A stretch of DNA of 40,038 bases, from assembly GCA_007134055.1 (NCBI GenBank), contig SLLM01000248.1, positions 1 through 40,038 of the forward strand, given 5' to 3'. The DNA is from Ectothiorhodospiraceae bacterium. GTDB taxonomy: Bacteria > Pseudomonadota > Gammaproteobacteria > Nitrococcales > Aquisalimonadaceae. The translations under genes were made by a program, and so were the position numbers. Below, piece after piece: positions 3,668-24,339 of the stretch (position 1 is its first letter; every line of letters starts with the position of its first letter). The notes beneath the pieces were generated by a model. That model saw only the letters and a program-made list of their open reading frames with translations, ran no database searches and was not told the origin of the DNA.

Positions 3668-3737
3668 TACTTTCTCCTCCTTACCATGCAGCCCTGCAGG
3701 CACAGTTGTCCGCAGAGCGTCGATGATACCATCCCCA

Positions 3738-3775: not shown

Positions 3776-3895
3776 AGATAGGCAAGCAACCTTCATCTGG
3801 GCTATCAGCGGGGACGGAGCTGGCCCACCGATCCGGTACGGATCCACTCCCCCGGAGGGCCATCCGCGCAGGCCGCGCACCGGTATCAGATGCGT

Positions 3896-3944
3896 CTGAC
3901 ATGTCAGCTGCATGTTGACAACATCCAAGACCACTGCCTAGCCT
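3896..3944 (+). promoter_or_regulatory. candidate operator plus promoter for the FAD oxidoreductase
   Basis: Perfect palindrome CTGACATGTCAG (3896-3907) just upstream of a perfect -35 TTGACA (3915-3920), 18-bp spacer, weak -10 TAGCCT (3939-3944), ATG at 3976. Confidence 0.5.
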
Positions 3945-3975
3945 GCCCGCATGCTCTCCTGCAAGGATACGCCGT

Positions 3976-5319: not shown

Positions 5320-5570
5320 GCGCGCCGCCCGCCGCGCACCGGCAACATCGTCACTCCCCTGATGCAGCCATGTTGTGAACACGCGGGAACACAGGCACTT
5401 GCACGATCGGAAAACAGCGTTGCGTATGGTGGAGCGGGGGGCAGGAGCCCGGACTCCGGTTGGCCGCTCTTGCCTCCGGGCGCTCCTGCGGGAGAGCGCA
5501 CTGTTCATCTGCGCGAAATGCGCGAAATCAGCCCGGCTCGCTCCGGAGGCACGGTGACACGGCCGCAACC

Positions 5571-6242
5571 ATGACACAGAACATCCTCGATCCCAGACAG
5601 AACACCTCCAGCCAGGCTGATCGCGCCTATGACGAACTGGAAGAGCGCATCGTCACCCTCGCGCTGCGCCCCGGGGAGGTGGTCTCGGAGAACATGCTCG
5701 CGTCCCTGCTGGGCATGGGTCGTTCGCCGGTGCGGGACGCGATCAAGCAGCTGGCGCGGGAGGGTCTGGTCGTCATCCTGCCAAAGCGCGGGGTCATGAT
5801 CGCCGAAGTCGACGTCCGCAGGCAGCTGGAGCTTCTTGAAGCGCGCCGGCAGGTGGAACGCTTCGTTGCCGCCGCCGCCGCCGCGCGGGCCACCCCCCGG
5901 GAGCGGGAGACTTTCGCCACCCTCGCCGCCGCAATGGAGGACGCCGGCAATCGCGACGACGGTGTCTCCTTCCTCAAACTGGACAAGGATTTCCACGAGC
6001 AGATGCTGGCCACTGCCCGCAACCGCTATGCGGCAGCCATGCTGGGCCTGGTGCAGAGCCAGGCGCGACGCTTCTTCTATGCCTTCTACCAGCAGACCAC
6101 CACAGTGCCGGAAACCGCCCGCCTGCACGCCCAGGTTGCCAGGGCGATCAGCCAGGGGGACAGCGCGGCCGCGCAATCGGCTTTCGATCAGCTGATGGAC
6201 AACGTGGACGCCTTCACCCGCGCCACCCTGGATCTGAGCTGA
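5571..6242 (+). CDS. GntR-family transcriptional regulator (FCD-type)
   Basis: ATG at 5571: QADRAYDELEERIVTLALRPGEVVSENMLASLLGMGRSPVRDAIKQLAREGLVVILPKRGVMIAEVD (GntR wHTH), C-terminal FCD-like helices with DKDFHEQMLATARN. Confidence 0.9.
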   Translation: MTQNILDPRQNTSSQADRAYDELEERIVTLALRPGEVVSENMLASLLGMGRSPVRDAIKQLAREGLVVILPKRGVMIAEVDVRRQLELLEARRQVERFVAAAAAARATPRERETFATLAAAMEDAGNRDDGVSFLKLDKDFHEQMLATARNRYAAAMLGLVQSQARRFFYAFYQQTTTVPETARLHAQVARAISQGDSAAAQSAFDQLMDNVDAFTRATLDLS

Positions 6243-6328
6243 TGCGCCGCCTGCGGGAGCACGCGAATCGCTGACATCCGGTTCAGGTGGCCTACGCTGG
6301 GGGGCATCGGTCCTCACCGGAGAACAAC

Positions 6329-7963
6329 ATGCTCCAGCGCCTGCAGCAACTGCTGGGCCTCCAGACCATCCCGGCGGTGTTCTTCACCTCTGCCCTGCTC
6401 GCGGTGCTATTTGTCGTGCTCGCCAGCATCTACGATGCGCCGGTGGCCACCTTCTTCGGCGACCTGACCACCTGGATCAGCACCTACCTGGGATGGTTCT
6501 TCGTGCTGACAGTCACGATGCTGCTGCTCTTCCTGCTGTGGCTGGCACTGAGCCGGTACGGCGACATTCGTCTGGGAGCCGATGACAGCCGGCCCGACTA
6601 CGGCAACCTGACCTGGTTCACCATGCTCTTCGCAGCAGGCATCGGCACCATTCTCATGTTCTGGGGCGTCGCCGAACCCCTGTCCCACTACGCCGCCCCT
6701 CCCCTGGAGGACACGGTTGCGGGTACCCGGGAGTCCGCCGCCCTGGCGATGAAATTCGCCCTCTACCATTTCGGCCTTCATACCTGGACCATCTTTGCAC
6801 TGCCGAGCCTGGCCCTCGCCTACTTCTCCTACCGCCATGGTTTGCCGCTACGTATCAGCAGTATTTTCTATCCCCTGCTGGGGCAACGGGCATTCGGCCC
6901 GGTGGGCTGGACCATCGACATTGTCGCGGTGATGGGCACCCTGTTCGGCGTCGCCGTCTCCCTGGGCCTGGGCACGCTGCAGCTCAACAGTGGCCTGCAC
7001 TATCTGTTCGGGGTGCCGGTGGCGGGGGCCTCCCAGGTGGCGATCATCGCCACCATCAGCACCATCGCCGCCATATCCGTCGCCCTGGGCCTGGACAGGG
7101 GCATCCGCCGCCTGTCCCAGATCAACATTCTCATGGCCGCCGGGCTGCTGCTGTTCGTCTGGGTCGCAGGTCCGACCCTGTTCATCACCAAGGGGCTGGT
7201 GGAAAGTGTCGGGGGTTACCTCCACAGCCTGCCGTGGCTGGCGTTCTGGACCGAAGCCTTCCAGGGAACGGGATGGCAGCGCGAGTGGACGGTCTTCTAC
7301 TGGGCCTGGACCATTTCCTGGGCGCCCTACGTGGGCATTTTCATCGCCCGCATCTCCCGGGGCAGGACGATCCGGGAGTTCGTCGCCGGGGTGCTGCTGG
7401 CACCAACGCTGTTCACCGTCTTCTGGTTCTCCGGCTTCGGCCTCTCCGCCATCGACCTCGATCTGAATCAGGGCGTCGACCTGGCCAGCCAGGTGCAGGC
7501 GGACGTATCGGTGGCGCTGTTCTCGTTCCTGGAGCAATTCCCGTTGAGTGCGATGGTCTCAGCGCTGAGCGTGGTGATCATCATCATCTTCTTCACTACT
7601 TCCTCGGATTCCGCTTCCCTGGTAATCGACATGCTCTCACGGCGAGACGATCAGGCGTCTCCGGCACGGCAGCGGGTCTTCTGGGCCCTTGCCCAGGGAG
7701 CCATCGCCGCCACCCTCCTGCTGGCCGGAGGATTCCAGGCGCTGCAGAATGTCATTACCACCCTGGGACTGCCCTTCTGCGCCCTGCTGGTGTTCATGGC
7801 GGTCAGCCTGCGGCGGGCCCTGCATGCCGATTACCATGGCTACACCGTGACAGACATCGCCCGGGGCACTGCACCACCGGTGCTCGGGGATGAACCGCTG
7901 ACGAAGGAGACACGCGATGTTCCGCACAATCCTGGTCGCCATCGACCCCGCCCACGGCGATGA
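6329..7963 (+). CDS. BCCT family (betaine/carnitine/choline-type) transporter
   Basis: 12-TM pattern; FWGVAEPLSHY, FYWAWTISWAPYVGIFIARISRGRTIREF signature; TTSSDSASLVIDMLS. ORF opens at 6287; ATG 6329 preferred. Confidence 0.92.
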   Translation: MLQRLQQLLGLQTIPAVFFTSALLAVLFVVLASIYDAPVATFFGDLTTWISTYLGWFFVLTVTMLLLFLLWLALSRYGDIRLGADDSRPDYGNLTWFTMLFAAGIGTILMFWGVAEPLSHYAAPPLEDTVAGTRESAALAMKFALYHFGLHTWTIFALPSLALAYFSYRHGLPLRISSIFYPLLGQRAFGPVGWTIDIVAVMGTLFGVAVSLGLGTLQLNSGLHYLFGVPVAGASQVAIIATISTIAAISVALGLDRGIRRLSQINILMAAGLLLFVWVAGPTLFITKGLVESVGGYLHSLPWLAFWTEAFQGTGWQREWTVFYWAWTISWAPYVGIFIARISRGRTIREFVAGVLLAPTLFTVFWFSGFGLSAIDLDLNQGVDLASQVQADVSVALFSFLEQFPLSAMVSALSVVIIIIFFTTSSDSASLVIDMLSRRDDQASPARQRVFWALAQGAIAATLLLAGGFQALQNVITTLGLPFCALLVFMAVSLRRALHADYHGYTVTDIARGTAPPVLGDEPLTKETRDVPHNPGRHRPRPRR

Positions 7964-8369: not shown

Positions 8370-10436
8370 TCAGACCTCCGAGCAGACCCGGTTGCGCCCT
8401 TCCCGCTTGGCCCGGTACATGGCCTGATCCGCCCGCGCCACCATGGATCGGCGGTTGTCGCCGGGATGCCAGGTCGTTACACCGACGCTGACGGTGACCG
8501 GTTGCGTACCCGGAATCTCCATGCCCGCCACGGATTGACGCAGCCTTTCCCCCAGAAACCCGGCGGCATCGGCATCACTGTTGGTCGCCAGCACAACGAA
8601 TTCCTCGCCGCCCCACCGTCCGAGATAGTCGGAGCCGCGCAGCATCCGTTGCACCTGCGCCGCGAGGGCGGTGAGCACACGGTCGCCGGCCTCGTGCCCG
8701 TAGCAATCATTGATCTGCTTGAAATGGTCGACATCGAACAGCAGCAGGGCGCAGCGGCGATCGTAGCGCTCCGCGGCGGCAATCTCCGCATCGATCTGCT
8801 GTTCCACCCGGTACCGGTTCCAGGTGCCGGTCAGCGGATCGGTATGCGCCAGGTGCTCCAGACGGCGATTGGCTTCGATCAGGCGGGAGTTGAGTTCGTC
8901 GAACTCCCGGCTGACGGCCAGCACGGCGAGATCCTCTCCCAGCTCCACGGCCGCACGGTGCTCCACGGGCGTCCAGGGAAGCGAACTGCCACGGATCTCC
9001 TCGCGCCAGGATGCGAAGGAACTGCGCGGTGTCAGCACCGGCCTGCCCTCCCGCTTCACCGGCACATCTTGCGGCTTCCCCGCCCAGACCCGGGTCTCCA
9101 CCTGCTCGGGCCGGAACAGCAGCAGCCAGCCAGGGCTGGAGTCACCAACCGAGAGGGGCACCGCCAGCAGGCCGCACCACTGGCTCTTGCCGAAAACCCC
9201 GGCCAGCGGCGAGGATCTCAGCCTGCGGCTGTACCATGCCTCCCCCCGCCCGATGGGACCGGAGAGATACTCCGCCACCTGCAGCAGCCGTGCACGCCCG
9301 GGGAGCCGCCCCACACGGGCAACCTGGTCGCGATACACCAGGGCGACCCCGCAGGCCCCGAACAGTGCCAGCCATTCAGGACCATGCCGCCGCAACAGCT
9401 TCGCAGGCCCCTGCAGGCGTCCCCGCTCCCGTGTCAGGAGTCCGCGGCTGTCATGCACCCGCTGCAGGTAACGGGCATCCTCCCGGGACTGGAGCAGCAG
9501 CAGTCGCGACGTGGCCATGTACACCATGGCGGCAACGGCATCCCGCAAGGCGGGGGATATGCGCCGGGGCGTCCGCCCGTGGCAAGCCAGCAATCCCCAG
9601 AGACCATCGTCGCCGTGCATGGCGACGGACAGCGACGAGCCCACACCCATGTTGCGCAGGTAGGTCAGGTGCACCGGCGAGACGGCACGGAGCATGCCCG
9701 CCGACAGGTCCAGGGAAACGCCTCCCTCCGGATCGCGGTCCGGAACGAGGACGACGGCATCGGCGGTGGCGTCGGGAATGCTGCGAATGGCGTTGATGGA
9801 GTACAGGCGCCGCACCTGGGGCGGGATGTCGCTGGCCGGGAAGTGATGGTCCAGATAGCTGTCGACCTTCTCGCCGCGGCTCTCCGCCACCACGCTGCCG
9901 TGCCCGTCCTCGTCGAAGCGGTACACCATCACCCGGTCGAACCCGGCGAGGGAACGCACCCCCTCCACCAGCCCGTCGAGCAGCGTGGAGGGCTGTTCGG
10001 CGCGCGCCAGTGCCTGCAACTGCCGGTTGACGGCGGACAGCAGGGGGGTTTCCCGGCGTCCCCCCATGGGTTCCAGCTCGATGACGACACGATTGCCGCT
10101 GCGGTAGGCCAGTACGTGGTAGCGACGCACGTGATCGGCGTGCCGACGGCTGGCAACCAGGGCGGAGGGCAACTGCCCGCGCCCGGCCAGTTCCCGTCGC
10201 AGGCGACCCAGCAGCCTTGCCCCCAGCACCCGCGACGGCCCCGCCACGGGTGCATCGCGGGCGGTAACGTCCAGGTATGCGTCGAGATTGGCACTGGCCT
10301 GCAGCACCCGCTCCATGGCGTGATCCAGGCTCAGAAGGCAGCCATCGGGCTGGATCGCATCGGGCTGGTGAATCGGCTCGCGCGCGCACTCCTCAAGGGC
10401 TGCAAGGACCTCTGCGTCGCTGAACCGTGTGGACAT
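8370..10436 (-). CDS. bphP: bacteriophytochrome (PAS-GAF-PHY) with C-terminal GGDEF diguanylate cyclase
   Basis: Start MSTRFSDAEVLAALEECAREPIHQPDAIQPDG (chromophore-Cys region), GAF DHHFPASDIPPQVRRLYSINAIRSIPD and LRAVSPVHLTYLRNMGVGSS, PHY FRPEQVETRVWAGKP and PRSSF tongue, GGDEF LLLFDVDHFKQINDCYGHEAGD...RGSDYLGRWGGEEF. Confidence 0.93.
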   Translation of the reverse strand: MSTRFSDAEVLAALEECAREPIHQPDAIQPDGCLLSLDHAMERVLQASANLDAYLDVTARDAPVAGPSRVLGARLLGRLRRELAGRGQLPSALVASRRHADHVRRYHVLAYRSGNRVVIELEPMGGRRETPLLSAVNRQLQALARAEQPSTLLDGLVEGVRSLAGFDRVMVYRFDEDGHGSVVAESRGEKVDSYLDHHFPASDIPPQVRRLYSINAIRSIPDATADAVVLVPDRDPEGGVSLDLSAGMLRAVSPVHLTYLRNMGVGSSLSVAMHGDDGLWGLLACHGRTPRRISPALRDAVAAMVYMATSRLLLLQSREDARYLQRVHDSRGLLTRERGRLQGPAKLLRRHGPEWLALFGACGVALVYRDQVARVGRLPGRARLLQVAEYLSGPIGRGEAWYSRRLRSSPLAGVFGKSQWCGLLAVPLSVGDSSPGWLLLFRPEQVETRVWAGKPQDVPVKREGRPVLTPRSSFASWREEIRGSSLPWTPVEHRAAVELGEDLAVLAVSREFDELNSRLIEANRRLEHLAHTDPLTGTWNRYRVEQQIDAEIAAAERYDRRCALLLFDVDHFKQINDCYGHEAGDRVLTALAAQVQRMLRGSDYLGRWGGEEFVVLATNSDADAAGFLGERLRQSVAGMEIPGTQPVTVSVGVTTWHPGDNRRSMVARADQAMYRAKREGRNRVCSEV

Positions 10437-10440
10437 TCCA

Positions 10441-11100
10441 TCAGCCCCCGTTCGTTCCCACACGCCCGGCCGGCACCGCCTGTGCCGGGAACGGCGCCAC
10501 TCCCCACCAGGCGTCAAGATAACCCTCCAGCGCGACGAATGTCTCTCGCCCGGCCGCCGCCACGCCGGCGAAGTCGTGGCGCTCGCCCCGCGCCATCACC
10601 AGATCCCGGTACGTCGCCCAGCAGCGCTGCCGGTAGAGATGAAAATAGCGCGCGCCGCAGGTTTCATCGAGACCGAGCACCTCCCGGAGCCGGGGGGCGA
10701 TCACGCGACCGCCCTGGGTGGCGCCCTCGAGCACGTAGAGGATACCCAGAACCCGGTCCGCACAGTCCGCGGCGGGCAGGTTGCGGTTACTGCCACCAGG
10801 GCACGGAGACCAGGCCCCACCAACGTCGAGATCCCGCAGGTCCGCCTGCAGCAACGACGCCCGCGAGAGGAAGGGATACGGGCCCATCGAAGGCCTTGAC
10901 AACCCTGCCAACTCCGGCCGCAGGCGCCTCTCCAGGCCAAGGAAGAAGTCAAGAAAGGCCACCAGCACCCGCGCGTAGACCGTGACATCGATCCTGCCGG
11001 ACGAAAGCGGCGTCACCAGGGGATGGCGTTCGATACGGCGGTGTTCGGCGGCGGTCGCGCGCCGGAGATGTTGCAGCAGGTGGATGCCGTGTGTACTCAT
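10441..11100 (-). CDS. bphO: heme oxygenase (biliverdin-producing, BphO-like)
   Basis: LLQHLRRATAAEHRRIERHPLVTPL (proximal His region), VLGILYVLEGATQGGRVIAPRL; stop 4 nt upstream of the bphP start. Confidence 0.87.
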   Translation of the reverse strand: MSTHGIHLLQHLRRATAAEHRRIERHPLVTPLSSGRIDVTVYARVLVAFLDFFLGLERRLRPELAGLSRPSMGPYPFLSRASLLQADLRDLDVGGAWSPCPGGSNRNLPAADCADRVLGILYVLEGATQGGRVIAPRLREVLGLDETCGARYFHLYRQRCWATYRDLVMARGERHDFAGVAAAGRETFVALEGYLDAWWGVAPFPAQAVPAGRVGTNGG

Positions 11101-11245
11101 TCGCAAGATCACCATCGGGGGCAGTCGCAGGATACCGGGATACCGGCCCCCCAAGCGACCCCGGGCCCTGATCGTCGGGACGATATTCGGGTGCCGACCA
11201 CCATGGGAGGCATGGCAGGACCACATCAGGCCTGAATTTCCATTG

Positions 11246-11262
11246 AATTGGAGTGCCCAATT
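11246..11262. promoter_or_regulatory. inverted repeat in AT-rich island of divergent intergenic region
   Basis: AATTGG-AGTGC-CCAATT in an otherwise GC-rich region between bphO and the binding-protein operon. Confidence 0.35.
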
Positions 11263-11533
11263 TACAAAGTTTATCAATTCCAGTGTACTTGACAGCATGC
11301 AGCGCCCGTAGAAATACTGGAACCAAGGTCGAGGAAGTGCTGAAGTATCAACACCCCCTGACCCGACTGGCCTGTGCGGGCGCATGTGATTGGCAAGGCA
11401 AGGGCTTCGGCAGGCCGCAAGGGTCTGCCCCAGGGGGGGAGCGTTGCGGGCAAGTTCTTTCTACCCCGGATGGGACGTGTGTCGTGCGCGGGCTGCTGAC
11501 GAAACGCATGAGCACGGCAGCTGCGTCCACAGC

Positions 11534-12571
11534 ATGCGCCCGGCACACCCGTTGCTGCTGGTACTACTCCTCCTTCTCACCATGCCGGGCGCCCACGCGG
11601 GCGCAGGACTTCCCGATCCGGTGCGGCTCCTCGGTGTCGGTTATCTCGGTGACCTGCCCACGCTGGTCGCCCGGGAGGAAGGGCTGTTCGGCCAGCGGGA
11701 ACTCCGCGTGGACGCGGTTCGCGGACAGTCCGGCATGGAGAATCTCCGTGCGCTGCGGGCGGGGGACGCCGAGTTCGCCCTGATGGCGCCGACGCCGCTG
11801 GTTCTGGACCGTCTCACCAATCCCGCCGAACGCGCCGGGGACGAACCGGTGATCCTGGCGAGCCTCGTGCACACCACCCACCTCAATCACGTGGTCACCC
11901 TCACCGACACAGGCATCCGCCACCCGCACCAGCTACCGGGACGGCGGGTAGGCCTGATGGCAGGCACCAATTCCGAGTTCCTCTGGTGGCTGTTTGCGCC
12001 CTACCATCGCTTTTCGCCGACTGCAGTGGAACTCGTGGACCTGCCGGTGGAGGAACTGGGCGATGCCCTCGCCGGCGGCAGGATCGATGCCGCCGTCCTC
12101 TGGGAGCCATGGACATCACGCCTGGCACGGCGCTTCGGCAACCGCCTGCATCACCTGCCCGGCGGCGACATCTATACGGAAAAGTGGGTGCTGGTGACGA
12201 CCCGCCGAATCGCCCGGGAACACGCCGAACTCTGCCGCCGGATTCTCGCCGCCTACCAGGAGGCCATCACCCGCATCGAGGAGCGTCCCGACAGTGCCCT
12301 TGGCATGTATGCCGAAGACGCTGGCCTCACCGGGGAACCGGAGGAGGGCAAACACGAGGCGGCGTTCTTCACCCTGACCCTGGACTGGTCCCTGCTGACC
12401 ACGCTACAGCAACAAGTGGAGTGGGCCCGGCACTCGGGGCGGGCGGCGCCCCAGCCCCAGGCCGACACCGATATCCTGTCCTGGATCGCCACCGAGCCGC
12501 TACGCGACCTGGCACCGGAGGCCGTCAGCATACCGGCCTCCACCGCGAATACCGCGCGTAGTGCTCCATGA
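11534..12571 (+). CDS. periplasmic ABC-type substrate-binding protein (NMT1/SsuA-like), no adjacent ABC permease or ATPase
   Basis: Signal peptide MRPAHPLLLVLLLLLTMPGAHA; VRLLGVGYLGDLPTLVAREEGLFGQRELRVDAVRGQSGMENLRALRAGDAEFALMAPTPLVLD; GRRVGLMAGTNSEFLWWLF; LAGGRIDAAVLWEPW. Confidence 0.85.
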   Translation: MRPAHPLLLVLLLLLTMPGAHAGAGLPDPVRLLGVGYLGDLPTLVAREEGLFGQRELRVDAVRGQSGMENLRALRAGDAEFALMAPTPLVLDRLTNPAERAGDEPVILASLVHTTHLNHVVTLTDTGIRHPHQLPGRRVGLMAGTNSEFLWWLFAPYHRFSPTAVELVDLPVEELGDALAGGRIDAAVLWEPWTSRLARRFGNRLHHLPGGDIYTEKWVLVTTRRIAREHAELCRRILAAYQEAITRIEERPDSALGMYAEDAGLTGEPEEGKHEAAFFTLTLDWSLLTTLQQQVEWARHSGRAAPQPQADTDILSWIATEPLRDLAPEAVSIPASTANTARSAP

Positions 12572-15500
12572 AGCTGGAGCGCCTCGCCGTCGTCAGCATG
12601 ATGGGCTGCCTGCTGGGGTTGCTGGCACTGGCGGTGGCTGGCGGCATCACCCTGGATCGGGTACAGCAGACCCAGCAACAGGGATCCCTGTTGCTGGAAC
12701 TCAAGAGCCGCATCGACAACCTCTCCATCGCCACCGACGCGCTGCTGCTCCATCAGCCCGACAGCTCCCTCTGGACCGCCTACCAGGCGGATGCCAGGGC
12801 CCTGCAGCAGGAACTCGAGGCCCTCGCCCGGGACCATCCTGCCGCTGCCCGGGCCGCCCACCATATCCGGCTGCTGGTGGAAACGCTGGCGGGTGCCCTT
12901 GACCAGCCGGACGTACCCCGGGGAGACGCCGGCATGCCGACGCCCGGAAGCGTGGGACCGCTGGAGGTGCCGGAACGCAGCCGGATCATCCTGAACCAGG
13001 TGGCGGGACACAGCATGGCTCTGGACGCTTCGCTGGACCGGTTGCTGCACCAGCGCCAGGCAGAGATCAACCGCAGCGCCCACTGGGCCATTGGCGGTTT
13101 CGCCGGCGCTGCGCTGCTTTTCGGGGTGATCTGCGTGTTCGCCTTCGGCCTGATCTTCCGGCGGATCAGCGGTCCGATCCGCGCCCTGTCCCGGACCATC
13201 GACGCGATCGAAGCCGGAGATACCCGTACCCGGGCGCCGGCGACCGGCGAGGACGAGCTGGCAGACCTGGCCCGCGCGTTCAACGGGATGCTCGATCACC
13301 AGCAGGCGGACGCCGCCCGCCTTCTGGAACAACAGCTCGAGCTGGAACGTCGTGAACGCATGCTGGCGGCTTCCCAGCGCGTGGCGCGGGTGGGAAGCTG
13401 GCGGCGGGAGCTCGTCAGCGACCACCTCGAGTGGTCGGGGGAGACCTACCGGATCCTGGGCGTATCTCCGAGCAATTTCCCGCCGACCCTCGAGGCGTTC
13501 GCTGCCCTGATCGACGAGGATGACCGCACGGCATTGCTCCGCGAGTACCACGCCGCCTCGGGGGGCAGAAAACCCAACGTCCTGGAACTCCGCGTCACGC
13601 GGCCGGATGGCGAAATCCGTCACGTGCAGCTCCGGTCCGAACTGGAGTACGGCACCGACGGCAGGCTGTGCGCAATCTCCGGCACCATCCAGGACATCAC
13701 CGAACAACACCGGGCCGAAGAGCATCTGCTGCAGTACCGGGAACTCGTGGAGGGAAGTCGTGACCTCTTCTGCGTGATCGGCAGTGACTACCGGTACGTG
13801 ATGTGCAACCAGGCCTATGCCGACCTGTTCGGCCTCGACCGCGACGCGGTCGAGGGAATGCACCTGCGCGAGCTGCGCGGCGAGGAATTCTTCCTCAAGG
13901 AAGCCAAACCCCCCATCGACCGCTGCCTGGCCGGTGAACCACAGATCTTCGAGGCCGAGCGCACCTACATGAACATCGACACGCGGCGCATACTGATCCG
14001 CTACCAGCCGGTGCCGTCGCCGGACGGTGTCATCCGTCAGGTGGCCTCCGTAGCCACCGATCTCACGGACCTGAAGCGGGCCGAGGAAGAACTGCGTGAA
14101 CAGGCTGAATTGCTGCAGATGGCGGGACGGATCGCCCGCTTCGGCGGCTGGTCCGTGGACGTGGCAAGTCGCCGCTGCACCTGGTCCGACGTGGTTCGCC
14201 AGATCCACTGCAGGCCCCCCGACTACAACCCGACCGTGGAACAGGTACTGGCCTCCTACGCGCCGGAGTACCGGGAACGAATCCGGGCCTGCTACACGGC
14301 CTGTTCCGAACGGGGAATCCCGTACGACGAGGAAGCGGAGATCATCACCGCCCAGGGCGCCCGCCGCTGGATCCGCACCGCCGGCGCGCCGGTGTACGAT
14401 GCCAGTGGCACCGTCATCCGGGTGGACGGCGCCTTCCAGGATGTCACCGATCGCCGGGCCTTGCTGGAGAAGCTGCAGCGCCAGGAAGAGTACCTGCGCC
14501 GCTCCCGCAACGAGATCTCGCGGGCGCTGGATACCCGGCAGGCCCTGGTCAACTCCCTGCCGGCCCACATCGCGCTGCTGGACCGGCACGGCACCATCAT
14601 CGACGTGAACCAGCAATGGCGGCAGTTCGCGGAAGTGGGTGGCTACCCGGACCCGGACCACGGAGTGGGCCGGAACTACCCGGAGATCTGCAGTCGCGCC
14701 ACGGGCTCCGGTGGCGATGACGCAACCGCGGCCGCGGCGGGGCTGCGGGCCGTACTGGAGGGTCGCCAGGAGAGCTTCACCCTCGAATACCCCTGCCATT
14801 CCCCGCGGCAGCGCCGCTGGTTTCGCCTGATGGCCCGCCGCCTCGCCGGCGGGAGCGATGACGCAGCGCAGTATGGCGCGGTCGTCATGCACGTGGACAT
14901 CACCGAACGCAAACTGGCGGAGGAGGAGCTCAACCGCCTTGCCTTTCGCGATCCGGTTACCGGCCTGCTGAACCGACCGGGGTTCATGGACGCATTCCAC
15001 CGCCGCATGGAGGAATCCGGCTGGGATGAATGCGGCATGGTGCTCATGCTCGACCTGGAAGGCCACCGCAACGTCAACGACGCTCACGGCTACCAGGCCG
15101 GCGACACGCTCCTCACCGAGATCGGCCAACGCCTGCAGGAACGCACCGGACCGGGGGCGATCGTCGGGCGTATCGGCGGAGACGAGTACGTGCTCTTCCT
15201 TCCCTCCGGCGGCACCCTGTCGGCAGAGCAGCGCCGCCGGACGGTGGCCTCAACCTTCGCCGAGCCCTTCCGGATCGGGTTCCTGCGGATCGAAGCAGCG
15301 GCGCGCTTCGGCCATACGAGCCTCGGCCCGCAGCGGCGTGATGCGGAGGCACTGCTCCGTGAAGCGGAGCTCGCACTGTTCGAGGCCCGGGCCGGCCGCC
15401 TGCGTGGGTGGGCCGCCTACACCGCGGAACTCGACAGGAACGTACGCCAGCGCATCGACACCACACGGGAGTTGCGGCGGGCACTGGAGGATCACCAGTT

Positions 15501-16257
15501 CGAACTGCACTACCAGCCCAAGGTCGACCTGGAAACCGGAGAACTCATCGCCTGCGAGGCCCTATTGCGGTGGAACCACCCCCGGCACGGACTGCGTCCC
15601 CCGGGACTGTTCATCCCCGTTGCCGAACAGAGCCAGCTCATCGGCCCCATCGGTGACTGGGCACTGTTCGAGGCCTGCCGGCAACTGCGTGAATGGCGGG
15701 ATGCCGGTCTGGAGGTGGTCCGCATCGCCGTGAACGTTTCCGTGGTGCAGTTCCACCTCGGTGGCTTCACGGACCGGGTGCGCGCGGCGGTGGCCGCCCA
15801 CGGGGTGGACCCGGCGAGTCTCACCCTGGAAATCACCGAAAGCGTCTTCGCCAGGGAGTCCGAGGCCCTGCGGGGGCAGCTGCGCGAACTCCACGAGCTG
15901 GGAGTGCGCCTGTCCCTGGATGATTTCGGTACTGGCTACTCCTCCCTGCTCTACCTCCAGCAGTACCCCTTCGACGAGATCAAGATCGACATGGGCTTCG
16001 TCCAGCACGTCCTGGATGACCCGTACAGCCGCAAGATCGTCACCACGGTATTGGGGATCGCCGGCGCGCTGGGCGCCGAAGCAGTGGCCGAGGGGGTGGA
16101 GAGCACGGCCGTGCGGGATGCGCTCCTGGAAATGGGCTGCCGCACCGGACAGGGGTACTACTACAGCGTGCCGCTGGCCGCGGAGGACGTCCGCTGGCTG
16201 CTGGAGAAGCGCTCGCCGCTGCCCCTGCCCCTGGTGCGGGAGCAGCGCAATGTCTGA
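12568..16257 (+). CDS. transmembrane HAMP-multiPAS-GGDEF-EAL c-di-GMP signalling protein
   Basis: 1229 aa; two N-terminal TM segments around a ~145-aa periplasmic region; HAMP-like RRISGPIRALSRTIDAIEAGD; several PAS/PAC-like repeats; RIGGDEYVLFLP; EAL (EALLRW, NVS, EITES, DDFGTGYSSL, AEGVES, GQGYYYS); ATGA overlap with previous gene. Confidence 0.93.
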   Translation: MKLERLAVVSMMGCLLGLLALAVAGGITLDRVQQTQQQGSLLLELKSRIDNLSIATDALLLHQPDSSLWTAYQADARALQQELEALARDHPAAARAAHHIRLLVETLAGALDQPDVPRGDAGMPTPGSVGPLEVPERSRIILNQVAGHSMALDASLDRLLHQRQAEINRSAHWAIGGFAGAALLFGVICVFAFGLIFRRISGPIRALSRTIDAIEAGDTRTRAPATGEDELADLARAFNGMLDHQQADAARLLEQQLELERRERMLAASQRVARVGSWRRELVSDHLEWSGETYRILGVSPSNFPPTLEAFAALIDEDDRTALLREYHAASGGRKPNVLELRVTRPDGEIRHVQLRSELEYGTDGRLCAISGTIQDITEQHRAEEHLLQYRELVEGSRDLFCVIGSDYRYVMCNQAYADLFGLDRDAVEGMHLRELRGEEFFLKEAKPPIDRCLAGEPQIFEAERTYMNIDTRRILIRYQPVPSPDGVIRQVASVATDLTDLKRAEEELREQAELLQMAGRIARFGGWSVDVASRRCTWSDVVRQIHCRPPDYNPTVEQVLASYAPEYRERIRACYTACSERGIPYDEEAEIITAQGARRWIRTAGAPVYDASGTVIRVDGAFQDVTDRRALLEKLQRQEEYLRRSRNEISRALDTRQALVNSLPAHIALLDRHGTIIDVNQQWRQFAEVGGYPDPDHGVGRNYPEICSRATGSGGDDATAAAAGLRAVLEGRQESFTLEYPCHSPRQRRWFRLMARRLAGGSDDAAQYGAVVMHVDITERKLAEEELNRLAFRDPVTGLLNRPGFMDAFHRRMEESGWDECGMVLMLDLEGHRNVNDAHGYQAGDTLLTEIGQRLQERTGPGAIVGRIGGDEYVLFLPSGGTLSAEQRRRTVASTFAEPFRIGFLRIEAAARFGHTSLGPQRRDAEALLREAELALFEARAGRLRGWAAYTAELDRNVRQRIDTTRELRRALEDHQFELHYQPKVDLETGELIACEALLRWNHPRHGLRPPGLFIPVAEQSQLIGPIGDWALFEACRQLREWRDAGLEVVRIAVNVSVVQFHLGGFTDRVRAAVAAHGVDPASLTLEITESVFARESEALRGQLRELHELGVRLSLDDFGTGYSSLLYLQQYPFDEIKIDMGFVQHVLDDPYSRKIVTTVLGIAGALGAEAVAEGVESTAVRDALLEMGCRTGQGYYYSVPLAAEDVRWLLEKRSPLPLPLVREQRNV

Positions 16258-16322: not shown

Positions 16323-18056
16323 ATGAACGCCCACGAGCCGCTACTGGTCAAACGCCCCACTGGGATCAGCGGCGTCGACGATGTCACCCGGGGCGGACTG
16401 CCCGCCGACGGCGCCACCCTGGTGATGGGGGAGCCCGGCGCCGGGAAGACGGTACTGGGACTGCAGATCCTGGGCCGCGCCGTGGAGCGGGGCGAAGGAG
16501 GAGTATTCCTGTCCTTCGAGGAATCCCGCAGCCAGGTGCAACGCGATGCGGAATCCTTCACCTGGGGACGGGCGTTGCGGGATCCTGATCGTCTCGTGGT
16601 GCTCGAGGGCCAGGATTCCCGCCACACCGAGATCGCAGGAGCCTTCGACCTGGAGGCACTGCTCGCCGCCCTGGACGCGAGCGCACAGCGGGTCGGCGCC
16701 TCATGGGTCGTGCTGGACGGTATTGACCGGCTCCTGCAACTGCAGCCGGACACGCGTACCGCCGTGGATCAGGTGGGCCGGATCGACGAATGGGCCAGGA
16801 ACACCGGCCGCTCGGTACTGCTTACCGGCAAGCACGCGGGCACCACCGGGTCAACCGGACCCAACCACCTGGAAGGCGTAGAATTCCTGCTCTCCACGGT
16901 ACTCGTGCTCTCCGCCCGCGTGGAGGAACAACGACTCAATCGCCGCTTCCGGGTGGCGAAGTACCGCGGCAGCAGCCATGCCGCGGACGCCCTGGCCATG
17001 CTGATCGACGATGACGGCATTCATCTGCCCTACAGCGAACCAGTCCCGGACAACGTCCCCGAAGTGCCACGGGAACGGGTGAGCAGCGGCATCGGGCGCC
17101 TGGACGAGATCCTCGGCGGAGGCTTCTACCGGGGCAGCAGCACGTTGATCTCCGGGCAGCCGGGCACCGCCAAGACAACCCTCGCCACCGCCTTCGCCGC
17201 AGCCGCCGGGCAACGCGGGGAGCGCGCGCTGTTCCTTAGCTTCGACGAGTTCTCCGGCCAGATCATCCGGGATACAGCCTCCGTGGGCATCGATCTCCAG
17301 TCGCATATCGACAGCGGCACGCTGCGTATACACGCCCGCGCCGCCTGGGCCGCCCAGGTCGAGGAGCACTACCGGCAATTGTTGCGACAGGTCGACGACT
17401 TCCAGCCGCACTGCCTGGTGATCGACCCGATCTCGGCCCTGCTCAAATCCTCCGGCCACGACAGCACCTTCATCGCCATCGAGCGCATTCTCGCCCGGGC
17501 ACGCGGCACCGGCATCACCACGGTGCTGACCTCCCTCAGCAACACGGATGATCCGGTATCGGAAACCACCCTGAGCCATGCTTCGACGCTGGCGGACACC
17601 TGGATCGTCCTCCAGTATCAGGCGCACGAAGGGGAACGCAACCGGTCCCTGTCGGTGGTCAAGTCCCGTGGCACCGCCCACTCGAACCAGGTACGGGAAG
17701 TGCTGATCTCTTCCCGCGGTGTAATGCTGGAGGAGGTCTTCCAGTACGGCTCACAGGTGCTCATGGGGACAGCCCGTCTGGAAAAGGAGCGGGAGATGGC
17801 CGAAGCGCGCGAGGCGCGCGCGCTGGAGCGGACACGACGGCAGCGGGACCTGGAACGGCAGATCGAGCAGACCCGCAGTCGCATGGACCAGGCCGGGACG
17901 GAACTCGAACAGCTGCAGCGTCAGCTGGGGGAAGAGACGGCGGCGCAGTCCGATCACGACCACGCCGCCGAGCGCCATCACCGGCACGTGCTGCAGCGGC
18001 GTGGCGAGGACAACAGCCACTCAGCGAACGCTGGCGGCACGGAGGATGGCACATGA
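16323..18056 (+). CDS. kaiC: KaiC-family double-RecA ATPase with C-terminal coiled-coil extension
   Basis: Two P-loop domains: GEPGAGKT (16428-16451) and GQPGTAKT (17154-17177); FLSFEES in CI, FLSFDEF in CII; ETTLSHASTLADTWIVLQY aligns with cyanobacterial KaiC phosphosite region; ~90-aa heptad-like tail. Alternative start 16278. Confidence 0.92.
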   Translation: MNAHEPLLVKRPTGISGVDDVTRGGLPADGATLVMGEPGAGKTVLGLQILGRAVERGEGGVFLSFEESRSQVQRDAESFTWGRALRDPDRLVVLEGQDSRHTEIAGAFDLEALLAALDASAQRVGASWVVLDGIDRLLQLQPDTRTAVDQVGRIDEWARNTGRSVLLTGKHAGTTGSTGPNHLEGVEFLLSTVLVLSARVEEQRLNRRFRVAKYRGSSHAADALAMLIDDDGIHLPYSEPVPDNVPEVPRERVSSGIGRLDEILGGGFYRGSSTLISGQPGTAKTTLATAFAAAAGQRGERALFLSFDEFSGQIIRDTASVGIDLQSHIDSGTLRIHARAAWAAQVEEHYRQLLRQVDDFQPHCLVIDPISALLKSSGHDSTFIAIERILARARGTGITTVLTSLSNTDDPVSETTLSHASTLADTWIVLQYQAHEGERNRSLSVVKSRGTAHSNQVREVLISSRGVMLEEVFQYGSQVLMGTARLEKEREMAEAREARALERTRRQRDLERQIEQTRSRMDQAGTELEQLQRQLGEETAAQSDHDHAAERHHRHVLQRRGEDNSHSANAGGTEDGT

Positions 18057-18367
18057 CTGCCGCCAATCGGGAAGACATTGATCATGGCGGACGCCTGCTG
18101 CTGTTCGTCACCGGGGAGGCACCGCGCTCGCGCCGCGCGAGAACGAACCTGCGGAACGTGCTCAAGGCCCGGGGCGGGGACCCGGACCAGGTAGTCGAAA
18201 TCGACCTGTTGCGGCAACCGGAACGGGCAATCCGTCACCGGATGTTCGCGACACCGGCACTGTTGCGCACGGATGCGGCCGGCACCGAATCCGTCCTCTA
18301 CGGCGACCTCTCCGACAGCGTTCGACTGCACCGGTTTCTCGACGATCTTCCGGACGAGGAGACGTGA
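18053..18367 (+). CDS. kaiB: KaiB-family protein
   Basis: LLLFVTGEAPRSRRARTNLRNVL...VVEIDLLRQPERAIRHRMFATPALLRT...VLYGDLSDSVRLHRFLDDL aligns along its length with KaiB (ATPTL, GDLS); ATGA overlap with kaiC. Confidence 0.9.
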   Translation: MTAANREDIDHGGRLLLFVTGEAPRSRRARTNLRNVLKARGGDPDQVVEIDLLRQPERAIRHRMFATPALLRTDAAGTESVLYGDLSDSVRLHRFLDDLPDEET

Positions 18368-18688: not shown

Positions 18689-19549
18689 GTGTCCACGGTA
18701 ACGAATGAACGTCTATTCATTCCGCAAACCCTCAGGGAAGCGCTCGATCTGCTTGCAGAAGACAGCGCGATCACGCCCATCGCGGGCGGCACCTGGCTCA
18801 TGCGGGCTCCGCTGCGTGGCGAGCCCCTGCCGGGTCGATGCCTGGCGATCGGCGCCATCGACGAACTCGCCGGTGTGCAGATCGAGGAGGCGACAGTCAC
18901 CATAGGGGCGGGTGTCAGTCACGCGGCCCTGGCCCGTGCCGTCGACGGGGTTCCCGACCTGCGGGGGCTCGGTCAGGCGGCAATGAAATCCGCCAATCCC
19001 GCGATCCGGGAAGTGGCCACAGTGGGCGGCAACCTCGCCACGGGCGGGTTTCCGGCGGCAGACCTGGTCCCGGCCCTGCTGGCCATGGACGCCGAAGTCA
19101 TTGTGGCGCACCGGGACCGGGAAGAACGCGTACCCATGACCCGGTTCCTGGAGCGCGAGCCGCGGGTGCCCCCCGGGTCCCTGCTGACCGGCGTGCGCGT
19201 GGCGCGTCGCCGGCAATCGTCGGGACATGCCCGCCTGACCATGCGCACGGCCGGCGACTATGCCGTCGCCATCGTCAGCCTCTGCCTCGGTCTACAAGAG
19301 GGCGGCACCATCACGGAGGCCCGGGTGGCCGTGGGTTCGGTGGAACCGACTCCACGCCGCTGGACGGAGCTCGAGCAGGCGCTGGCGGGAAGCCGTGCCG
19401 ACGCGGCGACTGCCGCGCAGGCGGCGGATTCCCTGGTCGCCGGGTTCAATGGCCGGGACGGGGTGGAAGCCCCCGGCTGGTACCGCACCCGCGTCCTTCC
19501 GACCCTGGTGCGCCGCGCTTTCGAAGCCGCCCTTCCCCGTACTGCCTGA
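18689..19549 (+). CDS. molybdenum hydroxylase FAD-binding subunit (CoxM/XdhB-like)
   Basis: GTG start; AGGTWLM, NPAIREVATVGGNLATGGFPAADLVPALLAMDAEV typical of CoxM; followed by 2Fe-2S and Mo subunits. Confidence 0.92.
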   Translation: MSTVTNERLFIPQTLREALDLLAEDSAITPIAGGTWLMRAPLRGEPLPGRCLAIGAIDELAGVQIEEATVTIGAGVSHAALARAVDGVPDLRGLGQAAMKSANPAIREVATVGGNLATGGFPAADLVPALLAMDAEVIVAHRDREERVPMTRFLEREPRVPPGSLLTGVRVARRRQSSGHARLTMRTAGDYAVAIVSLCLGLQEGGTITEARVAVGSVEPTPRRWTELEQALAGSRADAATAAQAADSLVAGFNGRDGVEAPGWYRTRVLPTLVRRAFEAALPRTA

Positions 19550-19559
19550 GGAGAACAGC

Positions 19560-20048
19560 ATGCCCCTGGAAATCAACGTCAACGGTGAAGCGCGAGCGGT
19601 CCAGGGCGACCCGATGACACCGCTGCTCACCGTGCTGCGCGAGGAGATGCACCTGACCGGTGCCAAGCTTTCCTGCGGCGAGGGCTTCTGCGGTGCCTGC
19701 ACCGTGCTGCTGGATGGAACGCCGGCCATGTCGTGCCTCATGCCCGTTGGCCTGGTCGGCGAACGCGCCGTTCTCACGATCGAAGGCCTGGCGCCGGCCG
19801 GTTCCGAACTCGTGCCGGTACAGAAGGCCATGCTGGACAACGACGCGGTGCAGTGCGGCATGTGCTTTCCCGGAATGGTGCTGACGCTGTCCGCGCTGCT
19901 GCAGCAGAACGACTCCCCCTCGGAGGACATGATCCGGGAGGCGCTGGTGGGCAACATATGCCGCTGCACCGGGTACGAGCGCATCGTTGCCGCGGCGCTC
20001 GAGGCCAGTCGTGCCACAGTCGCCGACGCGCAGGAGGTGTCCCGATGA
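19560..20048 (+). CDS. molybdenum hydroxylase 2Fe-2S subunit (CoxS/XdhC-type small subunit)
   Basis: LSCGEGFCGACTVLLDG and QCGMCFPGMVLT...GNICRCTGYERIV iron-sulfur motifs. Confidence 0.96.
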   Translation: MPLEINVNGEARAVQGDPMTPLLTVLREEMHLTGAKLSCGEGFCGACTVLLDGTPAMSCLMPVGLVGERAVLTIEGLAPAGSELVPVQKAMLDNDAVQCGMCFPGMVLTLSALLQQNDSPSEDMIREALVGNICRCTGYERIVAAALEASRATVADAQEVSR

Positions 20049-22444
20049 CAGCACCCGTGATCGGTTCCGATCTGCCCCGGCGGGACGCCGAGGACAAGCT
20101 GCGGGGCCGGACCCGCTACGCCATGGACAGCGGTCGTCCCGGGATGCTCCATGCCGCGCTGCGGCGCGCCGACCAGCCCGCCGCCCGCATCCGCCGCCTG
20201 GACGTCACCGCGGCCCGCCGGATGCCGGGGGTCCGTGCCGTGGTCACCGCCGCCGACGCCCCGGGTCGGTATGGTATCGCCGTGGCGGACCATCCCCTGT
20301 TCGCCATCGACACCATCCGCTACAACGGCGAGCCGGTGGCCGCGGTGGCCGCCGAGACACTGGAACAGGCGCGGGCGGCGGCGGACGCCATCCTCCTCGA
20401 GCTGGAACCGTTGCCCGCCAACCTCACCATGGCTGAATCCCTGGCGTCCGGCGCACGGGAGATCCACCCGGACTGGCGCGACTACCAGGAGCTGGTGGCG
20501 GGCGGCTCCCGCGGCGGCAACGTGGCCTGGGAGGCCACCGTCATCCGTGGCGACACGGACGCGGCCTTTGCCCGCGACGACGTAACGGTGGTCGAGAGCG
20601 AGTTCGTCGCCGGCCGCCAGAACCAGGCTCCCCTCGAGCCGCGCGCCTGTGTCGCTACCTACGAGGATGGCCGCTTCGTGATCGAGACCTCCACCCAGGT
20701 TCCCTGGGCCGTGCGCAACGCCACCGCCAACCTGCTCGGGGTCAATGTCGCCGACGTGCGGGTAACCGCCCCCGCGGTGGGCGGCGGCTTCGGACTCAAG
20801 TTCGAGATGGCGCTGGAACCGTTCGCAGCGCTGCTCGCCCGCGCCAGCGGGAGGCCGGTGAAGCTGGTGAACAGGCGCGAGGAGGAGATGCTCACCGCGC
20901 TGTGCCGGGAGAATGCCGACATCCGCATCCGCTCCGCGGTGAGCAGGGATGGCGAGATTGTCGCCCGGGAGGCCACGGTGCTGATGGACTGCGGCGCCTA
21001 CGGCGGCGAACAGCCCTTTCTCACCACCATGACGGCGCACACCCTGGGGGCCAACTACCGCCTGGGGGCCGTGCGCCTGGTCAGCCGGGCCGTCTACACC
21101 AATACCGCACCCACGGGGGCCTTTCGCGCCTGCAACGGCGCCTACAACACGTTCGCCCTGGAGCGTCACACGGACGAGATCTGCGCGGCCATCGGCATGG
21201 ACCCGGTGGAGTTCCGGCGCCGCAACGTGGTCGGGGACGGCAGCATGGGCGCCACCGGACAGATCTTCGAGGGCGACGTGCTCGGCCCCATGCTGGAGCG
21301 CATGGAAACGCTCCGTGCGGGAGCGGCGGGCGGACTGCCGGCGGGAGACAGGCGCCTGTTCGGCCGGGCCACGGTGGTCGGCACCTGGTTCGTGTTCGTC
21401 GGCCCTTCGGCGGCGACGGTGAACATCAACCCGGACGGCAGCGTTACGCTGGTGACCGCCGGCGTGGAGATCGGCTCCGGATCCATGATGCAGGCCTTGC
21501 CGCAGATCGTCTCCCATTCGCTGGGTGTGCCCCCGGAATCGGTGGTGGTGCGCGCGGCGGATACGGATTCCGCCGGGTTCGACATCGGTGTCGGCGGCGG
21601 CCGCACCACCGTCTCCCTGGGTGCCGCCAGCACCGCCGCCTGCGACGATGCCAGGCGCAAGCTGCTGGAGGTCGCCGCCGATCTGCTGGAGACGGCTCCG
21701 GAAGACCTGGTGCTCGAGGACGGCCATGTCGGCATCGTCGGCGTGCCGGATCAACGGATCAGCATCGCCCAGGTGGCGGCCCATGCGCAGCTCGTCACCG
21801 GACCCATCTCCGGCAGCGGCTCCTTCACCGGGCGCGGCACCGGGTCCCTGCCGGGCTGCGCGGCGGGGCACATGATCGAAGCCCTGGACATCCCCATTTT
21901 CACGGTGCATGAATGCGACGTGGCAGTGGATGCGGATACCGGGCACGTACAGATTCTCGCCTACCGGGTCGTGCAGGACGTGGGCCGGGCCATCAACCCC
22001 CGGGCCATCCACGGACAGATCCAGGGCGGCGTGGCCCAGGGTCTGGGTTATGCCCTGCACGAGGAGGTGACCATCGGCGCCGACGGCTGCATTCGCCAGC
22101 GGGGACTTGAAACCTATCGCCTGCCGCTGGCGCAGGATGTGGTCCCCGTTCAGGCGGAGCTGTTCGAGGGCGCGCCCTCCATCGGCCCCCTGGGGGCCAA
22201 GGGCGCCGGCGAAATCCCCATACTCAACGTGGCGGCGGCCGTAGCCTGCGCCGTGGCCAACGCGACCGGCAAGCGGGTACGGCAGATTCCGCTCACGCCG
22301 CCGCGGGTGCTGGGCCTGATCACCGGAATGGAACCGCAACCGAACCTGTCCCACGTCGGCAGTTCCTGGCGCGACAACGTGCTCGACGACCCGGACGAAC
22401 TGCTTGCCCGATCCCCGGTCCATGACACCGCCACGCCCTCCTGA
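20045..22444 (+). CDS. xanthine dehydrogenase-family molybdopterin-binding subunit (CoxL-like)
   Basis: DAEDKLRGRTRYAMD; VGGGFGLKFEMALEPFAALLA; GAKGAGE catalytic-Glu region; 4-nt overlap with 2Fe-2S subunit. Confidence 0.93.
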   Translation: MTAPVIGSDLPRRDAEDKLRGRTRYAMDSGRPGMLHAALRRADQPAARIRRLDVTAARRMPGVRAVVTAADAPGRYGIAVADHPLFAIDTIRYNGEPVAAVAAETLEQARAAADAILLELEPLPANLTMAESLASGAREIHPDWRDYQELVAGGSRGGNVAWEATVIRGDTDAAFARDDVTVVESEFVAGRQNQAPLEPRACVATYEDGRFVIETSTQVPWAVRNATANLLGVNVADVRVTAPAVGGGFGLKFEMALEPFAALLARASGRPVKLVNRREEEMLTALCRENADIRIRSAVSRDGEIVAREATVLMDCGAYGGEQPFLTTMTAHTLGANYRLGAVRLVSRAVYTNTAPTGAFRACNGAYNTFALERHTDEICAAIGMDPVEFRRRNVVGDGSMGATGQIFEGDVLGPMLERMETLRAGAAGGLPAGDRRLFGRATVVGTWFVFVGPSAATVNINPDGSVTLVTAGVEIGSGSMMQALPQIVSHSLGVPPESVVVRAADTDSAGFDIGVGGGRTTVSLGAASTAACDDARRKLLEVAADLLETAPEDLVLEDGHVGIVGVPDQRISIAQVAAHAQLVTGPISGSGSFTGRGTGSLPGCAAGHMIEALDIPIFTVHECDVAVDADTGHVQILAYRVVQDVGRAINPRAIHGQIQGGVAQGLGYALHEEVTIGADGCIRQRGLETYRLPLAQDVVPVQAELFEGAPSIGPLGAKGAGEIPILNVAAAVACAVANATGKRVRQIPLTPPRVLGLITGMEPQPNLSHVGSSWRDNVLDDPDELLARSPVHDTATPS

Positions 22445-23114
22445 GCAGCCGGATCCGGTCAATGGACCACCGGTGGCGGCCATCGTGCTCGCTGCCGGCG
22501 GTTCGCGCCGCATGGGAGGGGACAACAAGCTACTGGCCGAAGTCGCGGGCAAGCCGATGGTGGCTCATGTCGTCGATGCCTGCAGGAATGCCGGGTTGCG
22601 GCAGGTTGTACTGGTGACCGGCCATGAGGGGGCGACGGTGGCGGGGCTGTTCGAGCCGTCCGCCGTCGAGGTCGCGCACAATCCGGGTCACGCCAGCGGC
22701 ATGGCGGGCTCGATCCGTGCCGGGCTGGATGCGGTACAACCCGGCGTCCGGGGTGTGCTGATCTGCCTCGGCGACATGCCGGGTGTCCGACCGGCAACCC
22801 TGCGCAGGCTGGTGGCGGCACTCCGGGAGCGCGACGACATCTGCGTACCGTACCACGCGGGCCGACCGGGCAATCCCGTGCTCTGGGGTGCAGCCCACCT
22901 GCAAGCGCTGCGCGCGGCGGTCACCGGTGATCAGGGTGGCCGGCGGCTGCTGCGGGAACGCTGCACCTGCGTGCGGCAGGTTGCGGTGGACGATCCGTTG
23001 ATACGAGCCGACGCGGACACCCCGGAGGCACTCGCACAGCTCCGCAGCGCCCTGGGCCACCCGGATCCCGGCGCCCCCGGCAACCGGGAGGAAACAGAAC
23101 CGTTCCGGAGGTAG
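22422..23114 (+). CDS. MobA-like NTP transferase (MocA-type molybdenum cofactor cytidylyltransferase)
   Basis: VAAIVLAAGGSRRMGGDNKLLAEVAGKPMV nucleotidyltransferase motif; GDMPGV; linked to Mo hydroxylase genes. Confidence 0.87.
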   Translation: MTPPRPPEQPDPVNGPPVAAIVLAAGGSRRMGGDNKLLAEVAGKPMVAHVVDACRNAGLRQVVLVTGHEGATVAGLFEPSAVEVAHNPGHASGMAGSIRAGLDAVQPGVRGVLICLGDMPGVRPATLRRLVAALRERDDICVPYHAGRPGNPVLWGAAHLQALRAAVTGDQGGRRLLRERCTCVRQVAVDDPLIRADADTPEALAQLRSALGHPDPGAPGNREETEPFRR

Positions 23115-23289
23115 CACAATGACCTGCCATCCGCGTGCGGCGTCTTCCGGGCAGGCTTCGGGACCGCCGGGGACGACATTGCCCGCCGGTCGCGGGGCAC
23201 CTGTTACACTTTCCTGCTCGCGTACGGCCATAACGGCGCTGCAGCCCGCTGACGCCTGGCGCTGCTTCTGCAGAGGGTGGTAACCGATC

Positions 23290-24339
23290 ATGACGAGCAA
23301 TCTTCCGACGACCGCAGCCCTACCGGCCGACACGCTGCAGATCGCGGCCGAGTGGCTGGCGGAGGGCCAGCCCACCGCGCTCGCCACGGTCATCGCCACG
23401 CGCGGTTCATCGCCCCGGCCCGGTGGCAGCCTGCTCGCGGTTGCCGATGACGGCCGCTTCGCCGGTTCGGTCTCCGGCGGCTGCGTGGAGGGCGCAGTCA
23501 TCCAGGCAGCCCGGACGGTGCTGGAAGGCGGCGAATCCCGGCTGCTGGAGTTCACCATCGACGACCAGCAGGCCTGGGATGTAGGGCTGCATTGTGGCGG
23601 CGAGCTCAGCGTTCATCTGGGCACCGTCGCCGCGGAACACGTCAATGCCCTGGTCACCGCCCGGCAACAGCGCCGGGATGCCCTGCGCATCATCCCGCTG
23701 GAGGCGGATGTGCGCGAATCGGTTCTGCTCGGGGAGGAGATCCTTACGGACGAGGCCTTGCTGGAGGACATGGAAGCGGACGAAAGACGGGCCCTGCTGC
23801 GGGACGAACGCTGTCGCATACGGGAGCATTCCCGCCACGGCCCGCTGTTTCTGCAGCCACTGGTTCCCATGCCGCGGCTGGTCATCATCGGTGCCGTCCA
23901 CATCACCCAGTACCTTGCGCCCATGGCGCGTGCGGCCGGCTACGAGACCATCGTCGTAGACCCCCGCAGTGCCTTCGCGGCGCCGGACCGCTTCCCTGAC
24001 GTGACACTGAAGAAGAGCTGGCCCCAGGCCGCTTTCCGGGAACTGGTCCCGGACGCCAGGACGGCGGTGGTCACTCTCACCCACGATGCCAAGCTCGACA
24101 ACCCGGCCCTGGATGCGGCCCTGGAATCGCCGGCCTTCTACATCGGTGCCCTGGGCAGCCGCGCCACCCAGAAACTGCGCCGGGAACGCCTGGCCGAGCT
24201 CGGCCACGGGCCGGAGACACTGGACCGCATTCATGGACCGGTGGGGCTGCACCTGGGTGGGCGGGAGCCGGCGGAGATGGCGATCGCCATCATGGCGGAG
24301 ATCACCCGGGTACGTTATCTGGGCGCAGCGGCTGCGTAA
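23290..24339 (+). CDS. XdhC/CoxI-family maturation protein
   Basis: ALATVIATRGSSPRPGGSLLAVADDGRFAGSVSGGCVEGAVIQAA; C-terminal Rossmann domain with FYIGALGSRATQKLRRERL. Confidence 0.93.
   Translation: MTSNLPTTAALPADTLQIAAEWLAEGQPTALATVIATRGSSPRPGGSLLAVADDGRFAGSVSGGCVEGAVIQAARTVLEGGESRLLEFTIDDQQAWDVGLHCGGELSVHLGTVAAEHVNALVTARQQRRDALRIIPLEADVRESVLLGEEILTDEALLEDMEADERRALLRDERCRIREHSRHGPLFLQPLVPMPRLVIIGAVHITQYLAPMARAAGYETIVVDPRSAFAAPDRFPDVTLKKSWPQAAFRELVPDARTAVVTLTHDAKLDNPALDAALESPAFYIGALGSRATQKLRRERLAELGHGPETLDRIHGPVGLHLGGREPAEMAIAIMAEITRVRYLGAAAA

Follow-up and report, generated by a model that had tools for sequence, protein, structure and literature searches.

A stretch of 40,038 nucleotides from an Ectothiorhodospiraceae bacterium (here 'the window', meaning the whole stretch of DNA that we analysed) encodes a KaiC that keeps the phosphosite triad of the cyanobacterial clock protein and that, judged by its sequence, belongs to an uncharacterised lineage with an altered CII active site. 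We refer to this lineage as the D-E/S-T type. What we established directly are the sequence, its alignment, the lineage, and the gene order with its conservation; on this basis we consider it probable, if far from certain, that the KaiC and KaiB of this type act as a timer or switch that works without KaiA and is coupled to c-di-GMP turnover.

The phosphosites are kept and the CII active site is altered

The kaiC gene (16323..18056, + strand) encodes 577 aa with CI and CII ATPase domains and a C-terminal helix of ~80 residues. Its frame is open from 16278 and its stop ends at 18056; the likely start is the ATG at 16323 behind GGGAGAG, and the alternative ATG at 16278 would give 592 aa. The original prediction held that the product is a KaiC and not a generic RecA-like ATPase, and this part of it stood, on the evidence of two KaiC domains (PF06745 matched twice in a Pfam search, 249 bits; Walker A GEPGAGKT and a Glu-Glu pair, FEES, in CI, as in two-domain KaiCs), a score of 413.7 on NF006799 (cut-off 408), a match to the dodecameric R. 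sphaeroides KaiC (8dba, the best PDB sequence match, 8e-85), and a kaiB gene directly after kaiC.

Three codons had been proposed to match T426, S431, and T432 of S. elongatus KaiC, and alignment with the S. elongatus CII domain (reference sequence confirmed to be identical to PDB 1u9i) agrees: Thr416 (ACC, 17568..17570, +) is the T426 equivalent, and Ser421-Thr422 (17583..17588, +; TCG 17583-17585, ACG 17586-17588) are the equivalents of S431/T432 and of R. sphaeroides S413/S414, so that phosphorylatable residues occupy all three places. In every alignment that we made, the sites fall inside the phosphosite loop of CII. In the R. sphaeroides 8dba chain the residues aligned to the triad are T410, S415, and S416, and an offset of 2 residues in its numbering makes S415/S416 the demonstrated sites S413/S414, which are proven to be phosphorylated (PMC10076222). 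The 19-mers ETTLSHASTLADTWIVLQY and SITDSHISTITDTIILLQY are identical at 11/19 positions (8/19 for the best of 2000 protein shuffles; 6/19 for the next best place in KaiC). The cyanobacterial string used in the original prediction lacks one letter, the Ser before ITDSH, which is without consequence. An extra Thr at 17565-17567 aligns with I425, not T426.

Comparing the phosphosite loop by itself overlooked the operon, the extended helical C-terminus, and the changes in CII. The CII Walker A motif reads GQPGTAKT (17154..17177, +), with Ala (17169-17171) replacing the Gly before the catalytic Lys, and the CII acidic pair is Asp308-Glu309 (17244..17249, +), with Asp at the E318 equivalent and Glu at the E319 equivalent. 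In S. elongatus numbering, K294, T295, E319, D378, K457, and R459 are kept and R385 is Lys, and G293A and E318D are the two CII departures from the characterised KaiCs that we compared. E318 activates the Thr/Ser hydroxyls in S. elongatus KaiC, in which E318A loses phosphoryl transfer and E318D is arrhythmic (PMC2777353). In cyanobacteria, KaiC1-3 reportedly retain the P-loop GXXXXGK[ST] and both catalytic Glu (PMC5520375), and the window KaiC deviates from this in a way that is common to its lineage (n=42). The further inference of a phosphorylating KaiC is thus supported in part and, because of G293A and E318D, needs qualifying: autophosphorylation appears likely from the sequence because the phosphate-contacting residues are kept, but the two substitutions could weaken or abolish CII catalysis.

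Relatives of the window KaiC form a lineage of their own

We collected 115 KaiCs by three routes and aligned them; a scan of genome contigs with the single KaiC returned no relatives, and an alignment-based scan returned 80. Because the A/S P-loop served as one of the two patterns of the latter scan, frequencies from it are biased. Among the 34 sequences found without the A/S pattern the split holds, with A/S in 16/16 and S-T in 14/16 of the long-tailed D-type proteins, and G together with S-S in both long-tailed E-type proteins. In total, 42 KaiCs, the window's included, combine Ala or Ser ahead of the CII P-loop Lys with Asp-Glu (Asp-Ser in four), and this lineage has T/S at position 426 in 40/42, S at 431 in 41/42, T at 432 in 39/42, and Ala at 434 in 41/42, K294, K457, R459, and D378 being invariant in the lineage alignment. 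All 56 long-tailed Rhodobacter-type KaiCs have Glu at 318, with Gly before the Lys in 51 and Ser as the second site (432) in 54, and the marks of the window's lineage (A/S-K, D-E, S-T) thus contrast with those of the Rhodobacter type (G-K, E-E, S-S). The groups are defined by the P-loop and acid residues, and independent support for them comes only from the tree, the split between S-T and S-S, and the residues at 434 and 385.

The tree was built from the CI domain, which was used because it holds none of the diagnostic positions. It places the window KaiC among the D-type rows, apart from R. sphaeroides and the KaiC1-like proteins, and requires the acid change once (support of 84/99 for the branch uniting the E type). 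We considered functional co-evolution of the P-loop, acid, and site changes; with a single acid change on the tree, there are no independent events for such a test. A PDB search returned no solved structure for any lineage member, and in the open-access literature we found neither kinase data for a member nor a description of the P-loop and E318D variant of CII. Flavobacterial KaiCs (L083, L084, L086, L093, and L096) have a CII P-loop Ala with Glu-Glu and S-S, a P-loop change of separate origin, so the marks can come apart. A sub-branch of the D-E/S-T lineage (L106/L017, L041, L047, and L109) has Asp-Ser, having also lost the E319 equivalent.

One lineage member (L112) has the P-loop and D-E pair of the lineage and keeps the operon but has lost both main sites (S431 and T432), and two others have S-A at 431/432; together with the four that lack the E319 equivalent (Ser in its place), these indicate that phosphorylation is not essential in all members. 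L112, the four with Ser for E319, and the presence of G293A and E318D at two sensitive CII positions, the latter arrhythmic in S. elongatus, would be accommodated if CII bound ATP and transferred phosphate poorly or not at all, KaiC being an ATPase switch read via CI/KaiB and the loop being kept structurally. We regard this as rather unlikely, as S-T is kept in 39/42 members, in contrast to the S-S of the second long-tailed lineage, K294, K457, R459, and D378 are invariant, and active ATPases such as MCM helicases can have Ala or Ser in front of the P-loop Lys. In the open-access literature we found nothing either way on Ala/Ser before the P-loop Lys and activity.

A predicted long helical tail and KaiB without KaiA

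In the AlphaFold2 model of the window KaiC (mean pLDDT 86.9), residues 482-560 (17766..18002, +) form one confident 79-residue helix like the coiled-coil extension of R. sphaeroides KaiC, and chains of the R. sphaeroides dodecamer (8fwi, 8fwj, and 8dba) rank first in a Foldseek search with this model. The protein therefore carries the C-terminal extension of about 50 residues that marks the KaiC2/R. sphaeroides type, and has S-T in place of the two Ser phosphosites of that type. The heptad signal of its tail is not above that of shuffled tails, 20% of which reach it. The start of kaiB (104 aa; 18053..18367, +) overlaps the kaiC stop by 4 bases (ATGA); its product matches PF07689 (40.5 bits vs. 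27), and the AlphaFold2 model is predicted to be in the fold-switched, KaiC-binding form (best matches 5jwr_B, 8fwj_M, and 4kun). A kaiB gene is present at 40/42 loci of the D-E/S-T lineage, in one copy, and Rhodobacter-type loci (L049-L107) mostly have two in tandem (39/56). The R. sphaeroides KaiC/KaiB system (KaiC2-type) is the best match in sequence and fold, sharing the two domains, the long helical C-terminus, and the adjoining KaiB without KaiA; however, R. sphaeroides KaiC has S-S, GVAGAGKS, and Glu-Glu where the window KaiC has S-T, GQPGTAKT, and Asp-Glu, and it differs also in its lineage on the CI-only tree and in the usual number of kaiB genes.

A search of the window's genome (assembly 88% complete) for KaiA family members found none, and on TIGR02655, the cyanobacterial KaiC model, the window KaiC scores 228.7, far below the cut-off of 546. 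A canonical self-sustained KaiABC-type circadian oscillator would accord with the T-S-T triad, identical to that of S. elongatus KaiC (KaiC1), but we consider it highly improbable given these two results, E318D, and the replacement of the A-loop/tail region by the long helix in the AlphaFold2 model. The two proteins also have the phosphate-contacting residues in common, and the window KaiC differs further by G293A, R385K, and the lack of a KaiA-binding tail.

kaiBC lies in an operon with a predicted c-di-GMP phosphodiesterase

The operon runs from an NMT1/SsuA-like periplasmic substrate-binding protein (11531..12571, +; PF09084; ORF open from 11390, with the start placed by the signal peptide) through a membrane HAMP-PAS-GGDEF-EAL protein (12568..16257, +; Pfam) to kaiC and kaiB; at the first and last junctions, stop and start codons overlap. 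The EAL active-site motifs are intact, and the protein is a predicted phosphodiesterase that would degrade c-di-GMP, a bacterial second messenger. A same-strand GGDEF-EAL gene accompanies kaiC at 19/21 loci of the core subclade, 2/21 loci elsewhere in the lineage, and 2/55 of the Rhodobacter type; by motif comparison the EAL motifs of the core-subclade proteins are intact throughout, and their GGDEF motif and sensor domains vary. Binding-protein homologs, 39-48% identical, lie upstream of GGDEF-EAL-kaiC-kaiB in three Chromatiaceae, Halomonas urumqiensis, Methylohalomonas lacus, and a genome of the same family that carries the unit twice. An Rfam search of the window gave no match. A molybdenum hydroxylase cluster follows directly after kaiB (18689-24339, +; FAD and 2Fe-2S subunits, large subunit, MobA-like NTP transferase, and XdhC), and genes for a TRAP transporter (DctM and DctP), an FAD oxidoreductase, a GntR/FCD regulator, and a BCCT betaine transporter occupy 544-7963.

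The association of kaiBC with GGDEF/EAL genes is itself already known, having been published in 2011 (PMC3164672). The first context group of that Ramlibacter study likewise has kaiC-kaiB clustered with a GGDEF/EAL gene and S-T or S-S sites, but there the GGDEF/EAL gene is downstream of kaiC/kaiB, whereas here it is upstream and in several genomes behind a binding-protein gene. The S. elongatus clock is shifted by c-di-GMP manipulation, apparently without direct binding to Kai proteins (PMC13001216). Conservation of the operon reflects shared history, not mechanism.

The same genes could instead be a stress- or environment-sensing module without timing, a c-di-GMP relay made up of a periplasmic ligand, the GGDEF-EAL protein, and KaiBC, similar to the reported stress function of the Legionella kai genes. 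Among the core loci compared, the binding-protein gene occurs only alongside a matching periplasmic sensor region, and core members include halophiles such as Halomonas, which are not known as phototrophs. The Legionella KaiB is a close fold match to the window KaiB model, and a stress role has been reported for Legionella KaiC2 (as cited in PMC5520375). We take this as a real possibility, though not what we expect, as it leaves the kept phosphosites and the tail without explanation and a light-sensing diguanylate cyclase adjoins the kai operon in the window. It overlaps with the reading of a KaiA-independent timer or switch, and the two are not mutually exclusive.

A phytochrome gene pair adjoins the kai operon

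Divergent from the kai operon is a gene for a bacteriophytochrome-diguanylate cyclase (PAS_2-GAF-PHY-GGDEF by Pfam; 8370..10517, −), with a heme oxygenase ORF (10441..11385, −; PF01126, 29.7 bits vs. 23; biliverdin supply) upstream of it. The phytochrome protein keeps the biliverdin-site (chromophore) Cys motif and GGEEF, and it matches the phytochrome-activated diguanylate cyclase IsPadC (PDB 5llw) over the full PAS-GAF-PHY-GGDEF length (residues 36-714, 7e-138); it differs in adjoining a kai operon. No phytochrome gene was found near kaiC at the other core-subclade loci. In a same-order genome (L149:3190-11996), heme oxygenase and phytochrome-GGDEF genes diverge from a KaiC gene of the S-Y type that has a GAF-GGDEF-EAL gene behind it; here the phytochrome pair recurs independently with a different KaiC lineage. 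Across 274 gammaproteobacterial genomes, two-domain KaiC occurs in 7/12 genomes with a phytochrome vs. 19/261 others (p=2e-5, window's genome excluded), which common light-exposed lifestyles could explain. The phytochrome-diguanylate cyclase may be an input to Kai, and we offer this as a lead.

A proposed mechanism and its implications

We favour the KaiA-independent timer or switch because the phosphosites and K294/T295/E319/D378/K457/R459 are kept, KaiB is nearly constant (40/42), the closest fold is a chain of the R. sphaeroides dodecamer, the tail is predicted as one helix, the KaiB model is in the KaiC-binding fold, no KaiA was found in the genome, and GGDEF-EAL with intact EAL motifs is nearly fixed in the core subclade (19/21). 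Kinase activity, the dodecamer, KaiB binding, the c-di-GMP coupling and its direction, and any timing role are inferences from these observations. CI would hydrolyse ATP and bind fold-switched KaiB; CII would use ATP to phosphorylate Thr422 and Ser421 across the subunit interface, Asp308 taking the place of the usual Glu base; and the C-terminal helices would join two hexamers as in R. sphaeroides KaiC, replacing the need for KaiA. Autophosphorylation without KaiA is known for R. sphaeroides and R. palustris KaiC (PMC10076222, PMC4794148), and L. pneumophila KaiC is reported to autophosphorylate (as cited in PMC5520375). The phosphorylation/ATPase state of KaiC would be set by the ATP/ADP ratio, relaxed by KaiB, and coupled to the HAMP-PAS-GGDEF-EAL phosphodiesterase of the operon, a coupling that would tie the state of the timer to the level of c-di-GMP.

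More speculatively, and with little confidence, we suggest that the D-E/S-T lineage may constitute a distinct class of KaiC timers in which CII has a chemistry of its own (Ala/Ser P-loop and Asp base) and c-di-GMP is the output or input via a dedicated phosphodiesterase, to which the window might add red light via the bacteriophytochrome-diguanylate cyclase as a light-to-c-di-GMP-to-Kai circuit. Among KaiC timers that work without KaiA outside cyanobacteria, R. sphaeroides KaiC is the well-studied example. Phosphosites that are kept while two kinase-relevant CII positions have changed make this lineage naturally suited to testing whether Glu is required at 318, and the near-fixed GGDEF-EAL link provides a concrete candidate partner for the KaiC of the core subclade.
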